From contig DASUYB010000097.1 of assembly GCA_036377595.1 (NCBI GenBank), positions 1-36,608 on the forward strand: a stretch of 36,608 bases of DNA, in the 5' to 3' direction. Each line of letters opens with the position of its first letter. The stretch's first letter is position 1. Positions 6,204 through 34,559 of this stretch are shown here, piece by piece. This DNA is from Longimicrobium sp. (lineage in GTDB: Bacteria; Gemmatimonadota; Gemmatimonadetes; Longimicrobiales; Longimicrobiaceae). Under the pieces are notes generated by a model. That model searched no databases. It worked only from the letters and a program-made list of their open reading frames with translations, and was not told the DNA's origin. A program made the translations under genes and the position numbers.

Positions 6204-6998
6204 ATGTGCCTGGTCCTGCTCGCCTGGGATTCGCACCCCGAGTATCGCCTGGTCGTCGGCGCCAACCGCGACGAGTTCTACGCGCGTCCCACCGCGCCGG
6301 CGGACTGGTGGCAGGATGCGCCCCACGTCCTCGCCGGCCGCGACCTGCGCGACGGGGGGACGTGGATGGGGGTGACGCGCACGGGCCGCTTCGCCGCCGT
6401 CACCAACTTCCGCGAGCCGCAGGCGTACCGTGTCGGCGCGCCGTCGCGCGGGTTCCTCGTCGCCAACTTCCTCATCAGCCGCGCGCCCACGCTCGGCTAC
6501 GCGGCGGGGCTGATGCCCATCGCGCCGACGTTCAACGGCTTCAACCTGCTGCTGTTCGACGGGGCGACGCTGGCCTGGTTCTCCAACCGCGCGGCGGGCG
6601 CGCGGACGCTGCCGCCGGGCGTCTACGGGCTGAGCAACCACCTGCTCGACACGCCGTGGCCCAAGGTGGTGAGCGGGAAGGCCGACCTCCGCGACGCGCT
6701 GGCCGGCCCCGCGGACGAGATGGAGGCCCGCCTCTTCGCCTCGCTCGCCCGCCGCGACCCCGCGTCCGACACCGATCTGCCGTCCACGGGGATCGAGCCC
6801 GAGCGCGAGCGGGCGCTCTCCAGCGCCTTCATCGCCACGCCCGAGTACGGCACGCGCTGCTCCACCGTCCTCCTCCTCGGCCGCGACGGTGAGGTGAGCC
6901 TCACGGAGCGGACGACGACCCTCCCGTCCGCCGACGAGTGGAGCGAGGTTCGCCACCGCTTCCGCATCGGCGAGCCCGCCGCATCTCCATCTCCCTGA
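6204..6998 (+). CDS. NRDE (TANGO2-like) family protein
   Basis: The 264-residue protein begins MCLVLLAWD and contains the family signature GANRDEFYARPTAP at about residues 18-31. In this family Cys2 sits where an N-terminal nucleophile hydrolase would have its nucleophile, and the DLRDGGTWMGVTRTGRFAAVTNFR stretch (read in two parts at about 49-73) is well conserved. Eukaryotic TANGO2 has been linked to heme handling and metabolism, but the bacterial role is not settled. The start is firm because Cys must be residue 2. It has no signal peptide. It ends 13 bases before a hairpin shared with the convergent gene to its right. Confidence 0.88.
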   Translation: MCLVLLAWDSHPEYRLVVGANRDEFYARPTAPADWWQDAPHVLAGRDLRDGGTWMGVTRTGRFAAVTNFREPQAYRVGAPSRGFLVANFLISRAPTLGYAAGLMPIAPTFNGFNLLLFDGATLAWFSNRAAGARTLPPGVYGLSNHLLDTPWPKVVSGKADLRDALAGPADEMEARLFASLARRDPASDTDLPSTGIEPERERALSSAFIATPEYGTRCSTVLLLGRDGEVSLTERTTTLPSADEWSEVRHRFRIGEPAASPSP

Positions 6999-7010
6999 AC
7001 GGATTGGATT

Positions 7011-7072
7011 TCTCACGCGGAGACGCGGAGACGCGGAGGGGCAGCCAGGCTCCTCCGCGTCTCCGCGTGAGA
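7011..7072. terminator. Inverted repeat, CTCACGCGGAG type, between convergent genes
   Basis: The right arm 7052-7072 is the reverse complement of TCTCACGCGGAGACGCGGAG-G; the left arm from 7011 has the same sequence with one additional 8-base ACGCGGAG unit, ending at 7039. It belongs to the same family as 4543-4612 and again lies between convergent genes. Confidence 0.8.
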
Positions 7073-7080
7073 TCGATCTT

Positions 7081-7944
7081 CTACGGCTGCGTAGGCTGCT
7101 GCGCCGGACGGGCGCCGGTTACGCGTCCCGCCTGGTCCACCGTGTACTCGATCAGCGCGCCCGACGCGGTGCGTACCGTGCGCACGATCTGCCCCGCCTG
7201 GTTCGTCGTCTGCCCGACCACGGGAAGGCTGGTGATCGCCCCCAGCGTGCGCGTCCCCACCACCTGCCCGGCGGTGCCCAGCGTCCGCTCGACCAGGTTG
7301 CCGGACGCGTCGAGCGTGGTCTGCACCGTCTGCCCCAGCGTGTTCACCGTCTGGCTGAGGACGCCGCCCGGCGCGGTCACGTTCTCCAGCGTCTGCCCCA
7401 CGACGCCGACCGTGCGATCCACCACGCCGCCGGGCTGCAGCGCCGTGTTGGCGATGCCGCCGACGGTGCCCACGGTGCGGTTCACCGTGCCGACCAGCTG
7501 CGTCACCACCTCGGGGTGGTTGTCGACGAAGGTCAGCGTGCGCTCGATCATCTGCGTCACGTTGTCGAGATCGACCAGCAGCAGCGCCTCGGCGTGCACC
7601 CCGCGGATCCCCACGTTCACCTGGGCGATGGAGACGTCGGCGCCGGCCTGCACGCGCACCAGGTTGGCCACGGCCGCGTTCAGCGCCACCCGCGCCTGCA
7701 GGTTGCTGACCTCCAGCGTGATGCGCTCGACGCAGAGGTCCGGCACCATCAGCACCACGTCGTACGCCTGGTAGGGCCCGGGCGGCGCCGTCTGCCCGGC
7801 GGCCACGTTCGCCGGCGCCGCGGCGGAGCGCGCGCACTCCTGCACGGCTGCCTGCTGCGGCGCGCGGTTGCGCTGGCCGGCCGCCCCCGCGGGCACCAGC
7901 AGCGCAAGCGCGAGCGCCCCTCCCCATCTCGCCCCTCTTCGCAT
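7081..7944 (-). CDS. Secreted repeat-containing protein, paralogue of the gene at 8518
   Basis: The protein is 287 residues with a signal peptide (WGGALALALLVPAGAAG). The family is not recognised. A conserved block (YDVVLMVPDLCVERI at about 61-75, then LDNVTQMIER) is followed by a C-terminal half of short degenerate repeats of the kind VGTVGGIANTAL, VDRTVGVVGQTLENV, LSQTVNTLGQTVQ, VERTLGTAGQVVG. These repeats recur in the same order in the plus-strand protein at 8518-9363, so the two are clear paralogues in opposite orientation. The V/T/G-rich periodicity could form a beta structure or amphipathic helices. It is likely periplasmic or surface-exposed; the function is unknown. Confidence 0.8.
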   Translation of the reverse strand: MRRGARWGGALALALLVPAGAAGQRNRAPQQAAVQECARSAAAPANVAAGQTAPPGPYQAYDVVLMVPDLCVERITLEVSNLQARVALNAAVANLVRVQAGADVSIAQVNVGIRGVHAEALLLVDLDNVTQMIERTLTFVDNHPEVVTQLVGTVNRTVGTVGGIANTALQPGGVVDRTVGVVGQTLENVTAPGGVLSQTVNTLGQTVQTTLDASGNLVERTLGTAGQVVGTRTLGAITSLPVVGQTTNQAGQIVRTVRTASGALIEYTVDQAGRVTGARPAQQPTQP

Positions 7945-26531: not shown

Positions 26532-26903
26532 ATGCGCACCGCCGCACCCCGTCTCTCCCCGATTCTCCTGCTCCTGCCGCTCTCCGCCTGCATGACGTGG
26601 CGCGGTCAGCCGATCCCCGCCGGGCCGGGCCAGCACGACTACATCGTCGGCACGGCGCGGGTGATCCGCACGGACGGGATGGAGTTCCTGCTCGACAACG
26701 TGAGCGTGCGCCCCGACAGCGTGGTCGGCGCCCAGCACGTGCCGCCGGCGCGGCGCATCGCCATCCCCACGGCCGAGGTCGCGCGCATCGACGCCCGCCG
26801 CGAGGACCCGTTCGGCACCGCGCTGGCGGTGGCGCTCGGGACGGCCGCCGCACTCGGCGCGTTCGGCATGGCGCTGTTCCTCATCTACGGAACGGGAGGC
26901 TGA
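26532..26903 (+). CDS. Small lipoprotein, member 1 of a four-gene paralogous array
   Basis: The 123-residue protein has a lipoprotein signal (PILLLLPLSAC, Cys20) followed by MTWRGQPIP. The mature part is a small beta-rich domain (ARVIRTDGMEFLLDNVSV, then RIAIPTAEVARIDARRED), and a C-terminal hydrophobic helix (ALAVALGTAAALGAFGM and ALFLIYG) ends it. The same plan is seen in the next three genes. The protein is thus likely attached at both ends, by lipid at the N-terminus and by a membrane helix at the C-terminus. The function is unknown. Confidence 0.75.
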   Translation: MRTAAPRLSPILLLLPLSACMTWRGQPIPAGPGQHDYIVGTARVIRTDGMEFLLDNVSVRPDSVVGAQHVPPARRIAIPTAEVARIDARREDPFGTALAVALGTAAALGAFGMALFLIYGTGG

Positions 26904-26946
26904 GACATCGCCGTCCCGGGCGGACCCACCTCCACCGCTGCTCGCC

Positions 26947-27303
26947 ATGCGCACCGCCGCACGCGCGCTCGCCACGATCGCACTCCTTCTGCCGCTCGGC
27001 GCCTGCACGACGTGGGGCAGCCGGCCGATCCCCACGCCGGGACAGGACCACGCCGTCGCCGACAGGGTGCGGGTGACGCGCACGGATGGGTCAGTGGTCC
27101 TGCTCGACAGCGCCACGATCCGCGCCGACAGCGTCACCGGCGCCGCGCACCTGTTCCCGCAGCAGCGCGTCGCCATCTCCACCGCCGAGATCCAGGAGCT
27201 CGAGACGCGGCAGGAGGCCGCCGCCCTCACCGCGCTGACCGTCGTCCTCGGGCTGGTGGGCGTGCTCGTCGCGGCACTCTTCACGGAAGGAACCGGAAGC
27301 TGA
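26947..27303 (+). CDS. Small lipoprotein, member 2 of the array
   Basis: The 118-residue protein starts almost like member 1 (MRTAARALATIALLLPLGAC, Cys20, then TTWGSRPIPTPGQ). The domain pattern VRVTRTDGSVVLLDSATI, DSVTGAAH and VAISTAEIQELETR is preserved, and a hydrophobic C-terminal helix follows (TALTVVLGLVGVLVAALF). It is the closest relative of member 1, so the two look like a recent duplication. It begins 43 bases after the stop of member 1. Confidence 0.75.
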   Translation: MRTAARALATIALLLPLGACTTWGSRPIPTPGQDHAVADRVRVTRTDGSVVLLDSATIRADSVTGAAHLFPQQRVAISTAEIQELETRQEAAALTALTVVLGLVGVLVAALFTEGTGS

Positions 27304-27353
27304 AACCTGTGCGGGCGGGGGTGACGTAGTCCGTCTGGTAAACTGGTGTTTCC

Positions 27354-27380
27354 GCGCGGGTGAGAATATTTTTCCCGCGC
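27354..27380 (+). terminator. Weak hairpin between lipoprotein genes 2 and 3
   Basis: GCGCGGG at 27354-27360 pairs with CCCGCGC at 27374-27380 around an AT-rich loop (GAATATTTTT). It may attenuate transcription between members 2 and 3; the AT-rich loop could equally be part of a promoter. Confidence 0.35.
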
Positions 27381-27433
27381 CGGATCTCCGGCGGACAGTT
27401 TCGCCCCACCCGATACATCGAGGGTTTTCGCAG

Positions 27434-27802
27434 ATGAAGATCGACCGTCTCGCGCGGCTTCTGCCCGTGCTGTTCCTCGTCGTTATGCTTCCCGGATGCG
27501 TGACGTACTGGCCGAAGACGCCGCCGGAGCCGGGCGCCACCGCCTCGTTCCCCGGCATCGTCCGCGTGACGCGCGCCGATGCGACCTCGACGCTGCTGGT
27601 CGACGCCCGCGTGCAGGGCGACAGCCTGCGCGGCACGGTGCAGGGCGACCCGACGCAAGAGGTCGCCATCGCGCTCGCGGACGTGAAGCAGGTGGCGGTG
27701 CGGGAGCATAACGGCAAGGCCACGGTGGCGCTCATGCTGGTCAGTGCGCTCCTCGCGTACGGCGCGTGGGTCGCGATCCTCTACGTCTCCACCACCACCT
27801 GA
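27434..27802 (+). CDS. Small lipoprotein, member 3 of the array
   Basis: The 122-residue protein has a lipoprotein signal (LPVLFLVVMLPGC, Cys22) followed by VTYWPKTPP. It keeps the array pattern: IVRVTRADATSTLLVDARV, GDSLRGTVQGDP, EVAIALADVKQVAVRE, then a C-terminal hydrophobic helix (ALMLVSALLAYGAWVAIL). The stop overlaps the start of member 4 by one base (TGATG), so the two are coupled. Confidence 0.75.
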   Translation: MKIDRLARLLPVLFLVVMLPGCVTYWPKTPPEPGATASFPGIVRVTRADATSTLLVDARVQGDSLRGTVQGDPTQEVAIALADVKQVAVREHNGKATVALMLVSALLAYGAWVAILYVSTTT

Positions 27803-28182
27803 TGCGGCACGCGATGAATGCGCGGCGGGCGATTCCCCGCATCGCCGGGCTGGCGCTGCTCGCGCTGCAGGCGGCGTGCGTCACCTGGATGGAGCGCCCC
27901 GCGCCGCGGCCGCGCGCGGCGGCGTCGCTCCCCGCGCGCGTGCGGGTGACGCGGATGGACCGCACCTCGATGGTCCTCATCGACCCGTTCGTGCGCGGCG
28001 ACAGCCTCCACGGCACGCGCGTGGACCCGCCGGTCCAGGACGTGGCCGTCGCGCTCGACGACGTGCTCCGCGTCGAGGCGCGGCGCGTGAACGTGGCCGC
28101 CACCGCCGGTGCCGTCGCGCTCGCCTGGCTGGCCGCCTACGGGATCCGCCTCGTCTGCCCCTTCTGCAATGGGGGGGCCTGA
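27802..28182 (+). CDS. Small lipoprotein, member 4 of the array
   Basis: The 126-residue protein has a lipoprotein signal (IAGLALLALQAAC, Cys26, then VTWMERP), the domain RVRVTRMDRTSMVLIDPFV, GDSLHGTRVDPP and DVAVALDDVLRVEAR, and a C-terminal hydrophobic helix that ends with a CPFC pair (LVCPFCNGGA). The C-terminal cysteines set it apart from the other three. Two starts are possible: the ATG at 27802, overlapping the previous stop, or the ATG at 27814. Confidence 0.74.
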   Translation: MRHAMNARRAIPRIAGLALLALQAACVTWMERPAPRPRAAASLPARVRVTRMDRTSMVLIDPFVRGDSLHGTRVDPPVQDVAVALDDVLRVEARRVNVAATAGAVALAWLAAYGIRLVCPFCNGGA

Positions 28183-29117: not shown

Positions 29118-30374
29118 ATGCCGCAACGCAGGGTGGTCGTAACCGGCGTGGGGATGGTCACGCCGCTGGGGAACAACGCGGACGACACCTGGCGCAACGT
29201 GCTGGCCGGGAAGTCGGGGACGGGGCCGCTCACCAAGTTCGAGCTCGAGGGGCTGCCGCCGGAGGTGCGCGTGGCCGCCGAGGTGAAGGACTTCGATCCC
29301 GAGCCGGTGATCGAGCGGCGCGAGCAGAAGCGGATGGACACCTTCATCCAGTACGCGCTGGTCGCCACCGACGAGGCGATGCGCTCGGCCGGGATGGGCG
29401 GGATCGGGCCGGTCCCCGATCCCGAGAACACGGGCACCATCATCGGCAGCGGGATGGGGGGGATCGACAACATCATGCAGACGCGCACCCTGATGGACGC
29501 CAAGGGGCCGGGGCGCGTCTCCCCTTTCTTCATCCCCGCCAGCATCATCAACCTGGCCCCCGGGCAGGTGGCGATGCGCACGGGGGCAACGGGGCCCAGC
29601 TACTCGCCCGTGTCCGCCTGCGCCAGCAGCAACCACGCGATCGGCGAGGCCTTTCACGCCATCCAGCGCGGCGACGCGGACATGATGATCGCCGGCGGCA
29701 CCGAGGCGTGCGTCACCGCCATCTCGTTCGCCGGGTTCGCGGCGGCGCGGGCGCTGGCGAGCGACTGGGAGACGCCGGAGACCGCGAGCAAGCCGTTCGA
29801 CCGGCGCCGCAGCGGCTTCGTGCACGCCGAGGGCGGGGCGATCCTGATCCTGGAGGAGCTGGAGTCGGCGAAGCGCCGCGGCGCGCCGATCCTGGCGGAG
29901 ATCCTGGGCTTCGGGATGAGCGCCGACGCCTTCCACGTGACCGCGCCGCCCGAGAACGGCGAGGGCGCCGCGCGGGCCATGCGGCGCGCGCTGAAGAGCG
30001 CCGGCATCGCCCCCGAGCAGGTGGACTACATCAACGCGCACGGCACGGCCACGCCGGTAGGCGACGTCGCCGAGACGCGGGCGATTCGCACCGTGTTCGG
30101 CCCGCACGCGGAGAAGCTGGCCGTCTCGTCCACCAAGTCGATGCTGGGCCACGCGCTGGGCGGGAGCGCGGCCATCGAGGCGGGCGTCAGCATCTTCGCG
30201 CTGCGCGACGGGGTGATGCCGCCCACCATTAACCTCACCGAGCCCGACCCCGACTGCGACCTGGACTACGTCTCCGAGGGCGCGCGGAAGAAGGAGCTGG
30301 ACGTGGTCATCTCCAACTCTTTCGGCTTCGGCGGCGCCAACACCACGCTGGTGCTCAAGCGCTACGAGGAGTAG
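29118..30374 (+). CDS. fabF: Beta-ketoacyl-ACP synthase II
   Basis: The 418-residue condensing enzyme elongates acyl chains on ACP in fatty-acid synthesis. The active-site triad is complete: Cys168 in VSACASSNHAIGEAF, His308 in INAHGTATPVGD and His345 in SSTKSMLGHALGGS, with Lys340. The length is normal and the frame intact to the TAG at 30372-30374. The start is the ATG before PQRRVVVTGVGMVTPLG. Oddly, the last 103 bases of the coding sequence (30268-30370) recur at 31880-31982, and a foreign gene lies between. No acpP or other fab gene is next to it. Confidence 0.95.
   Translation: MPQRRVVVTGVGMVTPLGNNADDTWRNVLAGKSGTGPLTKFELEGLPPEVRVAAEVKDFDPEPVIERREQKRMDTFIQYALVATDEAMRSAGMGGIGPVPDPENTGTIIGSGMGGIDNIMQTRTLMDAKGPGRVSPFFIPASIINLAPGQVAMRTGATGPSYSPVSACASSNHAIGEAFHAIQRGDADMMIAGGTEACVTAISFAGFAAARALASDWETPETASKPFDRRRSGFVHAEGGAILILEELESAKRRGAPILAEILGFGMSADAFHVTAPPENGEGAARAMRRALKSAGIAPEQVDYINAHGTATPVGDVAETRAIRTVFGPHAEKLAVSSTKSMLGHALGGSAAIEAGVSIFALRDGVMPPTINLTEPDPDCDLDYVSEGARKKELDVVISNSFGFGGANTTLVLKRYEE
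30268..30370 (+). repeat. Direct repeat at the fabF 3' end, left copy
   Basis: These 103 bases of the intact fabF gene match 31880-31982 without gaps and with five mismatches (about 95% identity). Three of the four codon changes are synonymous; one turns Ala into Thr. They bracket 30371-31879. Confidence 0.92.
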
Positions 30375-31826: not shown

Positions 31827-31878
31827 CGGTGAGTTTATGTTCCTCGCCAGACAGGAACTGACTGAGCCGACCCGGTAC

Positions 31879-31986
31879 CACGTCTCCGAGGGCACGCGGA
31901 AGAAGGAGCTGGACGTGGTCATCTCCAACTCCTTCGGCTTCGGCGGGGCGAACACCACGCTGGTGCTCAAGCGGTACGAGGACTGA
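31879..31986 (+). pseudogene. Detached 3' end of a second fabF copy
   Basis: Thirty-five codons and a stop read as the C-terminus of FabF (HVSEGTRKKELDVVISNS, FGFGGANTTLVLKRYED). The match to fabF stops abruptly on the left, where the preceding bases are unrelated. The final codons differ slightly from the intact gene (GAC TGA instead of GAG TAG). It is followed by a terminator-like hairpin, so this looks like the original or donor 3' end of fabF pushed away by an insertion. Confidence 0.85.
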
Positions 31987-32046: not shown

Positions 32047-32250
32047 CGCGTTAAGGGAATCTTCATCGCCATGCGCACGGAGATTTCGCGTCGTGGAACG
32101 ATCGATGCGACGGCGGATAACGCGCGCTTCGGCGCGCTCCTGATCGTCTGCAGCCGGACTCCCACACGGTCCGCTCCGGATTGGCCGGACGGCCCGGCCA
32201 ACGCGTCGCGAATCGGCTCGCGGCGCGCACTCCAACGTGGGAGGTTCCCC

Positions 32251-32439
32251 ATGGACAAGCTGAAGCTGCCGGTCGACACGCTGAAGGTGGAGACGTTCGA
32301 CGCCGGCGAGGTGCTCGATGAGCGGGGCACCGTCGAGGCGCGCGCGTCCGGACCGGGCGGCGGATGCTGCACGCATCTTCAGACCGGGTGCAATCCCGAC
32401 ATCACCACGGTGTTCACCGGCAACTGCCACAACTGCTGA
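32251..32439 (+). CDS. RiPP (lanthipeptide-like) precursor peptide 1
   Basis: The 62-residue product starts MDKLKLPVDTLKVETFDAG, which resembles leader peptides of class I lanthipeptide-like precursors known from Bacteroidota and Longimicrobium-type bacteria. A GTVEARAS stretch follows, then a core rich in Cys, Thr and Ser (GGGCCTHLQTGCNP and TTVFTGNCHNC; five Cys). A good GGGAGG lies upstream of the ATG. It is a clear paralogue of the gene at 32601. No dehydratase, cyclase, protease or exporter is present in the window, so maturation enzymes would have to act in trans. The RiPP class is inferred, not proven. Confidence 0.75.
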   Translation: MDKLKLPVDTLKVETFDAGEVLDERGTVEARASGPGGGCCTHLQTGCNPDITTVFTGNCHNC

Positions 32440-32600
32440 GCTGGGACGAAGGAGCACCAGGGCCGGCCGCCGCGGGATGGGCCGGGCGGCCGGCTTCCCG
32501 GGGAACATGGATTTCCACCGGTCCGATGCGGGCGGGCGGGAATCGTCTGCCCGCGCGCCGCGAGGGGTTCGCGGCGCACACGCCAGCCGAGGGGGCACTC

Positions 32601-32780
32601 ATGGACAAGAAGCTGAAGGTGCAGGTGGACTCGCTGAATGTGGACAGCTTCGAGGTGGGCGACACCCGGAAGAAGGAGGGCACGGTGCACGCCCACATGA
32701 CGCCGGCGGGCGGCGTGTGCTGCACGGTGGACGGCACCGGGTGCCACACCGTCGTGGCCACGCACCCGTGCACCTGTTGA
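32601..32780 (+). CDS. RiPP (lanthipeptide-like) precursor peptide 2
   Basis: The 59-residue product has the same design as peptide 1: leader MDKKLKVQVDSLNVDSFEVG, a charged link with RKKEGTVHAHM, then a core with four Cys and five Thr (GGVCCTVDGTGCHTVV, ATHPCTC). The conserved positions are the KLK start, the VDxLxVxxF box, GTV and the CCT start of the core. The leader and core of the two genes have diverged, suggesting two different products rather than a simple copy. A perfect 14-bp hairpin follows 49 bases after the stop. Confidence 0.75.
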   Translation: MDKKLKVQVDSLNVDSFEVGDTRKKEGTVHAHMTPAGGVCCTVDGTGCHTVVATHPCTC

Positions 32781-32967: not shown

Positions 32968-33261
32968 ATGATCAGCCTGAAGGACATCCACTCACTCTCC
33001 GACTTCCAGCGTAATGCGCGGGCGTACTTGGAGCATTTGAAGGAAACCGGCCGTCCGCAGGTTCTGACGATACACGGGCAGGCCGAGCTCGTGGTGCAGC
33101 ACGCGGACGCGTACCAGAAGCTTCTCGACCTGGCGGCCAATGCCGCGGCCATTGTTGGCATCCAGCGGGGCTTGCAGGGGATGTACGACGGGACCGGCGA
33201 AGATGCCGAGGATGCGTTCGCCTCGCTGGAACGTGAGCTCGGGATCGCGGAGCACGCGTAG
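32968..33261 (+). CDS. Phd/YefM-family antitoxin
   Basis: The 97-residue protein begins MISLKDIHSLSDFQRNARAY, followed by KETGRPQVLTIHGQAELVV and a middle helix (DAYQKLLDL), the layout of Phd/YefM DNA-binding antitoxins. The N-terminal part would bind the palindrome upstream and the C-terminal part (about 55-97) the toxin. Its TAG stop overlaps the GTG start of the toxin by one base, which keeps antitoxin and toxin production coupled. The start is the ATG 17 bases after the operator. Confidence 0.88.
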   Translation: MISLKDIHSLSDFQRNARAYLEHLKETGRPQVLTIHGQAELVVQHADAYQKLLDLAANAAAIVGIQRGLQGMYDGTGEDAEDAFASLERELGIAEHA

Positions 33262-33578
33262 TGTTCCGGGTCCGGATCGAGGCCGAGGCCAGGAACAATC
33301 TCCGGAAGCACTATCAGAACCTTCGGTCGCGCAATCCCGGTTCGGAGTACCCCGACCAGTGGTACTACGGGATCCGGGCCGCCATTCGGGATCTCGCGGC
33401 TTCGGCCGACCAGTGCGGGCTGGCTTACGAAGACCGCTTCTTCGCCGAAACCATCCGCCAGCGACTCTTCGATTCGTACAAGATCCTCTTCGCGATCCGG
33501 GAAGATACCGTCCACGTGCTCCATGTCCGGCACCAGGCGCAGGACCCCGAGGATCTGATGCCTGAGGCTGGGGGCTGA
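33261..33578 (+). CDS. RelE/ParE-superfamily toxin
   Basis: The 105-residue protein starts with GTG and reads FRVRIEAEARNNLRKHYQNL, a RelE/ParE beginning. The middle has IRAAIRDLAASADQCGLAYE, and the C-terminal strands LFDSYKILFAIREDTVHVL and HVRHQAQDP carry the basic and His residues typical of the family. Members either cut mRNA on the ribosome or inhibit gyrase; the sequence alone does not decide. It is the second gene of the pair with the Phd-type antitoxin and ends before a strong terminator. Confidence 0.87.
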   Translation: MFRVRIEAEARNNLRKHYQNLRSRNPGSEYPDQWYYGIRAAIRDLAASADQCGLAYEDRFFAETIRQRLFDSYKILFAIREDTVHVLHVRHQAQDPEDLMPEAGG

Positions 33579-33651: not shown

Positions 33652-33870
33652 TCAAGCGGCGAGGCGCCGCACCACTTCGCGCGCACCCTTCCGGTACACG
33701 GTCAGGCACACCAGCTCGTCGTCCTGATCGCGCACCTCCCACCAGCGGCTGTGCTTCTGCTTGAGGCTTCGTGTCAGCGGCTTGGCTGAATCAGCAACCT
33801 CGCATCGGGGAAATCCGACTCCCACACCCGTCTCATGAGTATCCATCCCGGATGGTACTCCGGAAAGCAT
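33652..33870 (-). CDS. Tiny RWWEVRD-type protein, copy 1
   Basis: The family is not recognised. The conserved C-terminal part reads SRWWEVRDQDDELVC followed by LTVYRKGAREVVRRLAA and is almost identical in the second copy at 34134. The N-terminal part differs between copies, so its start is uncertain: ATG at 33870 gives 72 residues, ATG at 33846 gives 64, ATG at 33909 would overlap the plus-strand peptide gene. The basic end and aromatic pair suggest nucleic-acid or protein binding, but no function is known. It faces the toxin gene and shares the terminator with it. Confidence 0.68.
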   Translation of the reverse strand: MLSGVPSGMDTHETGVGVGFPRCEVADSAKPLTRSLKQKHSRWWEVRDQDDELVCLTVYRKGAREVVRRLAA

Positions 33871-33894
33871 CACCTCTAGCAACGGGAGACGATC

Positions 33895-34044
33895 ATGGCG
33901 GTAAAGCATCTACCCACGAACGAAGTACATCTGGGCAGCAAGGGAGGGAAGACCGGATGCGGTTTCGACACGACCGTCCACCCGGAAAACTGGGCCAATA
34001 CGACGGCGCCGATCACCTGTGATAAGAACGGCTGCAAGAACTAG
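33895..34044 (+). CDS. 49-residue peptide MAVKHLPTNEVHLGSKGG..., unknown
   Basis: A short gene starts at the ATG with GGGAGA placed 7 bases upstream and ends in TAG. The product reads MAVKHLPTNEVHLGSKGG, KTGCGFDTTVHPENWAN and TTAPITCDKNGCKN, without a signal peptide. It has three cysteines, two of them in a C-x4-C at the end, and many Thr and Asn residues. It might be a RiPP precursor, a small zinc protein or a stand-alone regulator; the evidence does not choose. It is flanked by two converging RWWEVRD genes and has the duplicated terminator behind it. Confidence 0.7.
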   Translation: MAVKHLPTNEVHLGSKGGKTGCGFDTTVHPENWANTTAPITCDKNGCKN

Positions 34045-34133: not shown

Positions 34134-34319
34134 TCAGGCGGCGAGCCGCCGCACCACCTCTCGTGCGCCCTTCCGGTACACGGTCAGGCACACCAGCTCG
34201 TCGTCGAGATCGCGCACCTCCCACCAGCGGCTATTCTCCTGCTTGGTGATGGTGCAGGCGGGCTTCGCGGCGGCTGCGGGTGTGGGGTCCTTCGGGTCCT
34301 CAGGCATCGTGGGCTCCAT
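34134..34319 (-). CDS. Tiny RWWEVRD-type protein, copy 2
   Basis: The 61-residue protein begins MEPTMPEDPKDPTPAAAAKP and ends with the same block as copy 1 (SRWWEVRDLDDELVC, LTVYRKGAREVVRRLAA). The N-terminal half is Pro/Ala-rich and likely flexible, so the conserved 32-residue end is the working part. DNA from about 34131 to 34244 repeats 33651-33764 in direct orientation at high identity. Its function is unknown. Confidence 0.7.
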   Translation of the reverse strand: MEPTMPEDPKDPTPAAAAKPACTITKQENSRWWEVRDLDDELVCLTVYRKGAREVVRRLAA

Positions 34320-34340
34320 CGCTTGGCCGAGGCTGCTCCG

Positions 34341-34559
34341 TCGAAGGCGGGTTGGCAGCGGGATCTTTCTTTCCTTCTGCCGCGCCTCGCTGAGTTGCAT
34401 GAACGGCAAGGCGAAGTGGCTGTGGGCCTGTCGCTCGCGCAGGAGAGTCTCTCAATCGATAAGCGGTTGGCCTCACTTCATCCAACAAATGTCATTTGGA
34501 AGCACGACTTGGACGTGAGCCGCGCACTAGTTGAACGGCTCTCGGCCGGTAACCGATGA
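34341..34559 (+). pseudogene. Remnant of a tetratricopeptide-repeat protein
   Basis: The frame reads SKAGWQRDLSFLLPRLAEL, HERQGEVAVGLSLAQESLSI, DKRLASLHPTNVIWKHDL and stops at 34559. It follows the AGWQRDLS...L..Q......L..YR.SL.I...L...P.N..W..DL consensus of TPR repeats found in large signalling or conflict proteins. No start codon, signal or further repeat is seen upstream, so it looks like the broken 3' end of a larger gene. Confidence 0.65.

Follow-up and report, generated by a model that had tools for sequence, protein, structure and literature searches.

Two orphan genes of a Longimicrobium genome are predicted precursors in a large, scattered class I lanthipeptide family

The two small tandem genes analyzed here lie in a 36,608-nucleotide stretch of Longimicrobium sp. 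DNA (the window). Very probably they encode class I lanthipeptide precursors that carry a pinensin-type leader and are orphaned from their enzymes, and they count among more than 200 substrates that would be modified in trans, most likely by one or two enzyme sets from other loci of the genome. They most likely belong to a genome-wide system of the diversity type, and from the sequences we infer that thioether rings form on the window peptides. We lean slightly toward a stronger view, in which one enzyme set of the type encoded at C103 processes more than 200 scattered substrates per cell with a CHG-type and not a CCG-type cyclase. This would be the largest such library known and the first in class I.

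The two window genes and their surroundings

The precursor genes and their start signals were located as follows; the Shine-Dalgarno-like sequences were read from the sequence.

32156..32250, + strand: 5' region of precursor 1, homologous (blastn) to the 5' region of precursor 2 at about 32509-32600
32240..32244, + strand: Shine-Dalgarno-like GGAGG of precursor 1
32251..32439, + strand: precursor peptide 1, 62 amino acids, MDKLKLPVDTLKVETFDAGEVLDERGTVEARASGPGGGCCTHLQTGCNPDITTVFTGNCHNC; leader about MDKLKLPVDTLKVETFDAGEVLDERGTV, core region EARASGPGGGCCTHLQTGCNPDITTVFTGNCHNC
32590..32595, + strand: Shine-Dalgarno-like AGGGGG of precursor 2
32601..32780, + strand: precursor peptide 2, 59 amino acids, MDKKLKVQVDSLNVDSFEVGDTRKKEGTVHAHMTPAGGVCCTVDGTGCHTVVATHPCTC; leader about MDKKLKVQVDSLNVDSFEVGDTRKKEGTV, core region HAHMTPAGGVCCTVDGTGCHTVVATHPCTC

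An earlier sequence-only reading of the window had described two peptides with a common leader, a GTV link and a GG.CCT core start, followed by unlike cores. Peptide and DNA comparisons confirmed this description. Both products have the pattern K-L-K-x-x-V-D-[TS]-L-x-V-x-[TS]-F, the GTV link and a core that starts with GG-x-CCT, and they are unlike thereafter. The DNA of the two genes was 70% identical over 157 bp (blastn, E = 3e-13), an alignment that spans approximately 95 bp of upstream DNA plus the leader codons, and the sole other clear match between the coding sequences was 18 of 20 positions at the GG.CCT core start. The 5' regions are homologous: the leader and the DNA upstream of it were duplicated together. 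The GC3 of precursor 1 was 0.90. Longer in-frame open reading frames (122 and 138 amino acids) are also present at these genes; we preferred the ATGs given above because they fit the family and are preceded by a purine-rich, Shine-Dalgarno-like sequence.

In a whole-genome search with a leader profile, peptides 1 and 2 matched with E = 2.1e-10 and 1.3e-10, values that are favorable because both leaders are among the 56 family members from which the profile was built. There were no matches at E < 1 in an equal amount of Markov-resampled DNA. A direct scan of the two peptides against NCBIfam and Pfam matched no family, the pinensin model included.

The sequence-only reading had also stated that the window encodes no dehydratase, cyclase or transporter. 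This held: searches of the 36.6-kb window (tblastn, E < 1e-3) with the LanB, LanB elimination domain, LanC and ABC exporter of the same genome gave no match. The window pair thus departs from the usual, though not obligatory, class I arrangement, in which a precursor is clustered with its enzymes. The nearest neighbors of the precursors are fabF, a low-GC open reading frame of unknown function and a Phd/ParE-type toxin-antitoxin pair.

Several other features of the window were noted. The last 115 bp of fabF (30257-30370) recur 1.6 kb downstream at 31868-31982 with 93% identity, and the two repeats bracket the low-GC open reading frame, which encodes 483 amino acids of unknown family and has a GC content of about 53% compared to about 70% around it. 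The arrangement suggests that this reading frame was inserted at the 3' end of fabF. The Phd/YefM antitoxin and ParE toxin genes (32968-33578) are directly downstream of the precursors, followed by two small paralogues on the minus strand (33652-33909 and 34134-34409) that end in SRWWEVRD.DDELVCLTVYRKGAREVVRRLAA and match no Pfam family. Further upstream (26532-28182) there are four tandem, lipoprotein-like small paralogues (...C-x-TW...VTRxD...) of unknown function.

A family of precursors dispersed over the genome

The genome is a 7.2-Mb draft of 208 contigs with an estimated contamination of 4.8%, and the window contig fits the pattern. We counted family members by profile searches and in 74 stretches of DNA (1.3 Mb in total, including the window). 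With peptide 2 as the query, 128 matches at E values up to 10 were obtained in the genome that encodes it. An iterated profile over the 1.3 Mb identified 198 distinct precursors, of which 186 had E < 1e-4. They are distributed over 53 contigs and form 82 clusters; 44 of these are single genes, and the largest has 24. The whole-genome profile search added 23 places outside these stretches, giving at least 221 precursors on about 63 contigs. The true number may be greater, since only 150 of the 327 candidates were scored in that search. A search for more leader copies, proposed with the sequence-only reading, therefore yielded more than 200 beyond the window pair. All 198 of the fully read precursor sequences differ from one another.

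Only 14 of the 198 precursors are within 12 kb of a locus for modifying enzymes, and mining restricted to the vicinity of LanC would overlook about 93% of them. No modifying enzyme recurred among the genes beside orphan precursors; the recurrent neighbors were other precursors, ABC proteins and unrelated families. An upstream motif, CACCTGC, was considered as a promoter and rejected. Its occurrences are scattered from -170 to -50 and one strand is followed, so it is most likely an artifact of Thr-Cys codons in the preceding tandem cores.

No orthologue of the window pair was seen within its genus, so the pair could be short-lived or inactive copies. The orphan genes in general might be decaying or silent copies that meet no enzyme, relics of a family that was once clustered, which would agree with their distance from the enzymes, the missing orthologue and a rapid turnover. 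We consider this quite unlikely. The majority of copies retain an ATG, a Cys/Thr-rich core and a leader that is intact. A Shine-Dalgarno-like stretch is present at -18 to -4 in 172 of 185 family members; for a control interval, the figure is 25 of 185. Free decay would erode these features.

The composition of the family members separates leader from core. The leader (about 28 amino acids) is almost devoid of Cys across the family, and 158 of 160 members carry Ala or Gly at the second position after GTV. The core has a median length of 41 amino acids and a median of 6 Cys, with 14.8% Cys and 12.3% Thr, and all but two of the 198 precursors have at least two Cys and at least two Ser/Thr. In random pairs, mean identity was 48% for leaders and 22% for cores, compared to 19% for shuffled cores. 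When ten siblings were compared with the NCBIfam model NF038180 (leader_pinensin), which has a curated cut-off of 24 bits, two scored above it (28.0 and 25.6 bits) and two near it (21.6 and 21.0 bits). The window pair did not match this model directly; its match to the family profile built here was at approximately 1e-10.

We analyzed the spacing of core residues in 64 cores, one per locus, and compared the counts to shuffled expectation. Ser/Thr directly preceded Cys 205 times (85 expected, z = 15) and stood five residues before Cys ([ST]-x4-C) 153 times (78 expected, z = 10). In contrast, CxC and CxxC were below expectation (z = -3.6 and -3.1). The cores look like LANTHIPEPTIDE cores, and the repeated [ST]-C-x-x-[ST]-C layout fits thioether rings. 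Metal binding by unmodified peptides had been raised as an alternative with the sequence-only reading, and the high median Cys number could suggest this or disulfide formation. Unmodified Cys-rich peptides of either kind are very unlikely. The depletion of CxC and CxxC does not fit zinc or metallothionein spacing and thus disfavors metal binding, and the enrichment of [ST]C and [ST]-x4-C also speaks against such peptides. In addition, Cys is nearly absent from the leader, which probably belongs to a lanthipeptide family and tracks LanB, and the window pair matches no Pfam family.

Modifying enzymes and their link to the leader

The sequence-only reading had placed the enzymes at another locus, with several substrates for one enzyme set, and had been made contingent on RiPP enzymes being present in the genome. 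A search of the rest of the genome revealed operons with both LanB and LanC at C98 and C103, in support of that proposal; we infer the modification itself. LanB matches were found at C98, C103 and C1 (weak and of a different type), and LanC-like genes at C98, C103 and C145. LanB and LanC are separate (PF04738, PF14028 and PF05147), as in class I, and no full-length LanM was seen among the three LanC-like genes.

The C103 operon reads, on one strand, LanB glutamylation protein, separate elimination protein, LanC, ten family precursors and ABC exporter. It has the pinensin-type split of LanB into glutamylation and elimination proteins:

L063:5242-8466 (C103): LanB_N, encoded by a gene separate from that of the elimination protein
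L063:8450-9478 (C103): Lant_dehydr_C elimination protein, a separate gene

The C98 locus contains LanC, an exporter, two precursors with divergent leaders and C-S-[ND]-C repeats (L062:10825-11397, between exporter and LanB), LanB and an elimination protein. A similar C-S-[ND]-C precursor is present beside the C98-type set of one relative (G007). The zinc motifs of LanC are intact at both loci (WCHG and CHG at C103; WCHG and CCG at C98). LanC aligned to LicM2 and also matched NisC, and the LanC domains are closest to LanM cyclases. At its C terminus, the C103 LanC is extended by about 230 amino acids (L063:10900-11600); the only match of this extension, below threshold, was NGO1945_C. The LanC-like protein at C145 has, by eye, a kinase-like part and is therefore probably class III-like.

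The elimination protein scored above the cut-off of TIGR03891 (thiopep_ocin), which might point to a thiopeptide-like pathway making azoles or pyridine rings. Such a pathway is extremely unlikely: YcaO (PF02624) is absent from the genome, LanC adjoins the elimination protein, and the pyridine-synthase model scored 60 bits against a cut-off of 325.

The distribution of the leader among genomes follows LanB. Of 61 relatives, ten have the leader, and LanB exceeded the cut-off in exactly the same ten. Under random placement this co-occurrence has a probability of 1e-11, which is only indicative because the relatives are not independent. Of 346 sampled genomes of the phylum, 19 have LanB, and these include all ten in which the leader was found. 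Three genomes of the same genus (G004, G005 and G006) have a LanC-like gene, no LanB and zero leader copies, so a LanC-like gene alone does not predict the leader.

Copy number follows the C103-type LanB. Eight genomes have at least 11 leader copies, and all have a C103-type LanB at 55-84% identity (or are G000 itself). G007 has only the C98-type LanB and a single copy of the leader. In two leader-containing genomes outside the taxonomic family (G192 and G194), a leader gene is within about 4 kb of LanB. Leader genes are within about 4 kb of the same split LanB/LanC set in other families of Gemmatimonadota (L163, L164), on two contigs of Acidobacteriota (L185, L186) and on one of Ignavibacteria (L188), so that operon linkage of leader and enzymes, which is typical of class I, is seen at C103, in other families and in other phyla. 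At L188, a LanB elimination gene and LanC are accompanied, within 10 kb, by about six candidate precursors, of which two are weak. The leaders of these candidates are more divergent, and the locus represents a more distantly related branch of this system. There was a weak leader match about 5 kb from a split LanB/LanC set in Fulvivirga.

Together with the C103 operon, the genome encodes two other candidates for the modification of the orphan precursors, the C98 set with its CCG-type LanC and the class III-like protein at C145, and among LanMs it is the CCG type of cyclase that is promiscuous (PMC10027976). That the window peptides are substrates of either is unlikely. The large leader expansions track the C103-type LanB, G007 has one copy with the C98 type only, and the precursors at C98 itself have a divergent leader and C-S-[ND]-C repeats; the three genomes with LanC-like genes and no LanB have no leader. 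It is thus more likely that the C103 operon, rather than C98, serves the window peptides. Since the expansions follow the CHG-type C103 set, a CCG-type cyclase is not favored as the cause of promiscuity.

Proposed pathway and relation to known systems

In the pathway that we propose, the shared leader (KLxLDxxxLxVxSF...GTVx[AG]) would be bound by the split dehydratase of C103. The leader most likely brings the dehydratase and cyclase of C103 to the peptides in trans, much as scattered ProcA peptides recruit ProcM. LanB would use Glu-tRNA to glutamylate core Ser/Thr residues, from which the separate Lant_dehydr_C protein would then eliminate glutamate, leaving dehydro-residues. The LanC zinc cyclase would then join Cys thiols to these residues, forming (methyl)lanthionine rings in a pattern set by the core. 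The peptide would be exported via the ABC exporter of the C103 operon, and a protease would remove the leader near GTVx[AG]. New products could arise as the 5' region and leader are duplicated and the core changes rapidly.

Pinensins are class I lanthipeptides that were first known from Bacteroidota. The precursors described here are probably like pinensins (NF038180) in leader family, with some siblings above the cut-off. The split LanB is also stated for pinensin (PMC7268733), and the LanC domains of the pinensin group, as here, are nearest to LanM cyclases (PMC7268733). Unlike in pinensins, there are hundreds of scattered precursors without a cluster, in another phylum, and their cores are mutually unrelated.

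The prochlorosins and synechococsins (made by ProcM and SyncM) are alike in having one leader, hypervariable cores, and single or tandem precursors far from the enzyme. Their hallmark, a class II LanM with a CCG motif acting on a Nif11 leader, was not found; here there are class I LanB and LanC, a pinensin-type leader and CHG (C103). The numbers also differ, with more than 220 precursors here and 29, 79 or up to 83 per genome for the prochlorosin type (PMC10783134, PMC10027976). Unlike in prochlorosins, most members lack a GG cleavage site. Since GG precedes CCT in the window pair, cleavage of the GG type by a C39 peptidase was considered, but it was rejected: GG stands between GTV and the first Cys in just 8 of 160 members. 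No leader protease was found; the three C39 peptidase genes of the genome (C13, C17 and C68) are not beside precursors.

Already known, then, are the pinensin-type leader, the split LanB and, from prochlorosins, the scattered strategy of one leader and many cores. As far as the literature searched shows, the novelty lies in the occurrence of this strategy in class I and in Gemmatimonadota, and in a scale of more than 200 precursors per genome; the precursor expansion was nowhere described in that search, which covered subscription journals little. Three lanthipeptide regions have been predicted by antiSMASH in Longimicrobium terrae (PMC7291104), which is of the same phylum and probably of the same family; only clusters are listed there, and scattered precursors are not mentioned.

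The greatest numbers of natural substrates on record for one lanthipeptide synthetase are 79-83, all in class II and from marine cyanobacteria (PMC10027976, PMC10783134, PMC12328550). The substrate set proposed here would be far larger than any described for this enzyme class. If a class I system does act on more than 200 substrates, then substrate-scattered, diversity-oriented biosynthesis evolved separately with LanB/LanC, the source of promiscuity becomes testable outside the LanMs with a CCG motif, and there is a natural set of hundreds of cores under one leader.

Two contigs stood out among those with precursors. An 11.7-kb contig (C20, L044) carries 24 precursors, several with related cores of the TC..C CPSA/CPTA type, and is possibly a birth site of new precursors. 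On contig C29 (L046, offsets 6851-7744, minus strand) there is a subfamily in whose leader (MLNPDDLxVxSF) the N-terminal KL part is missing. Its core, CCTGCVSGCGINPTAGGC, is nearly constant and similar to the GG.CCT start of the cores of the window pair.
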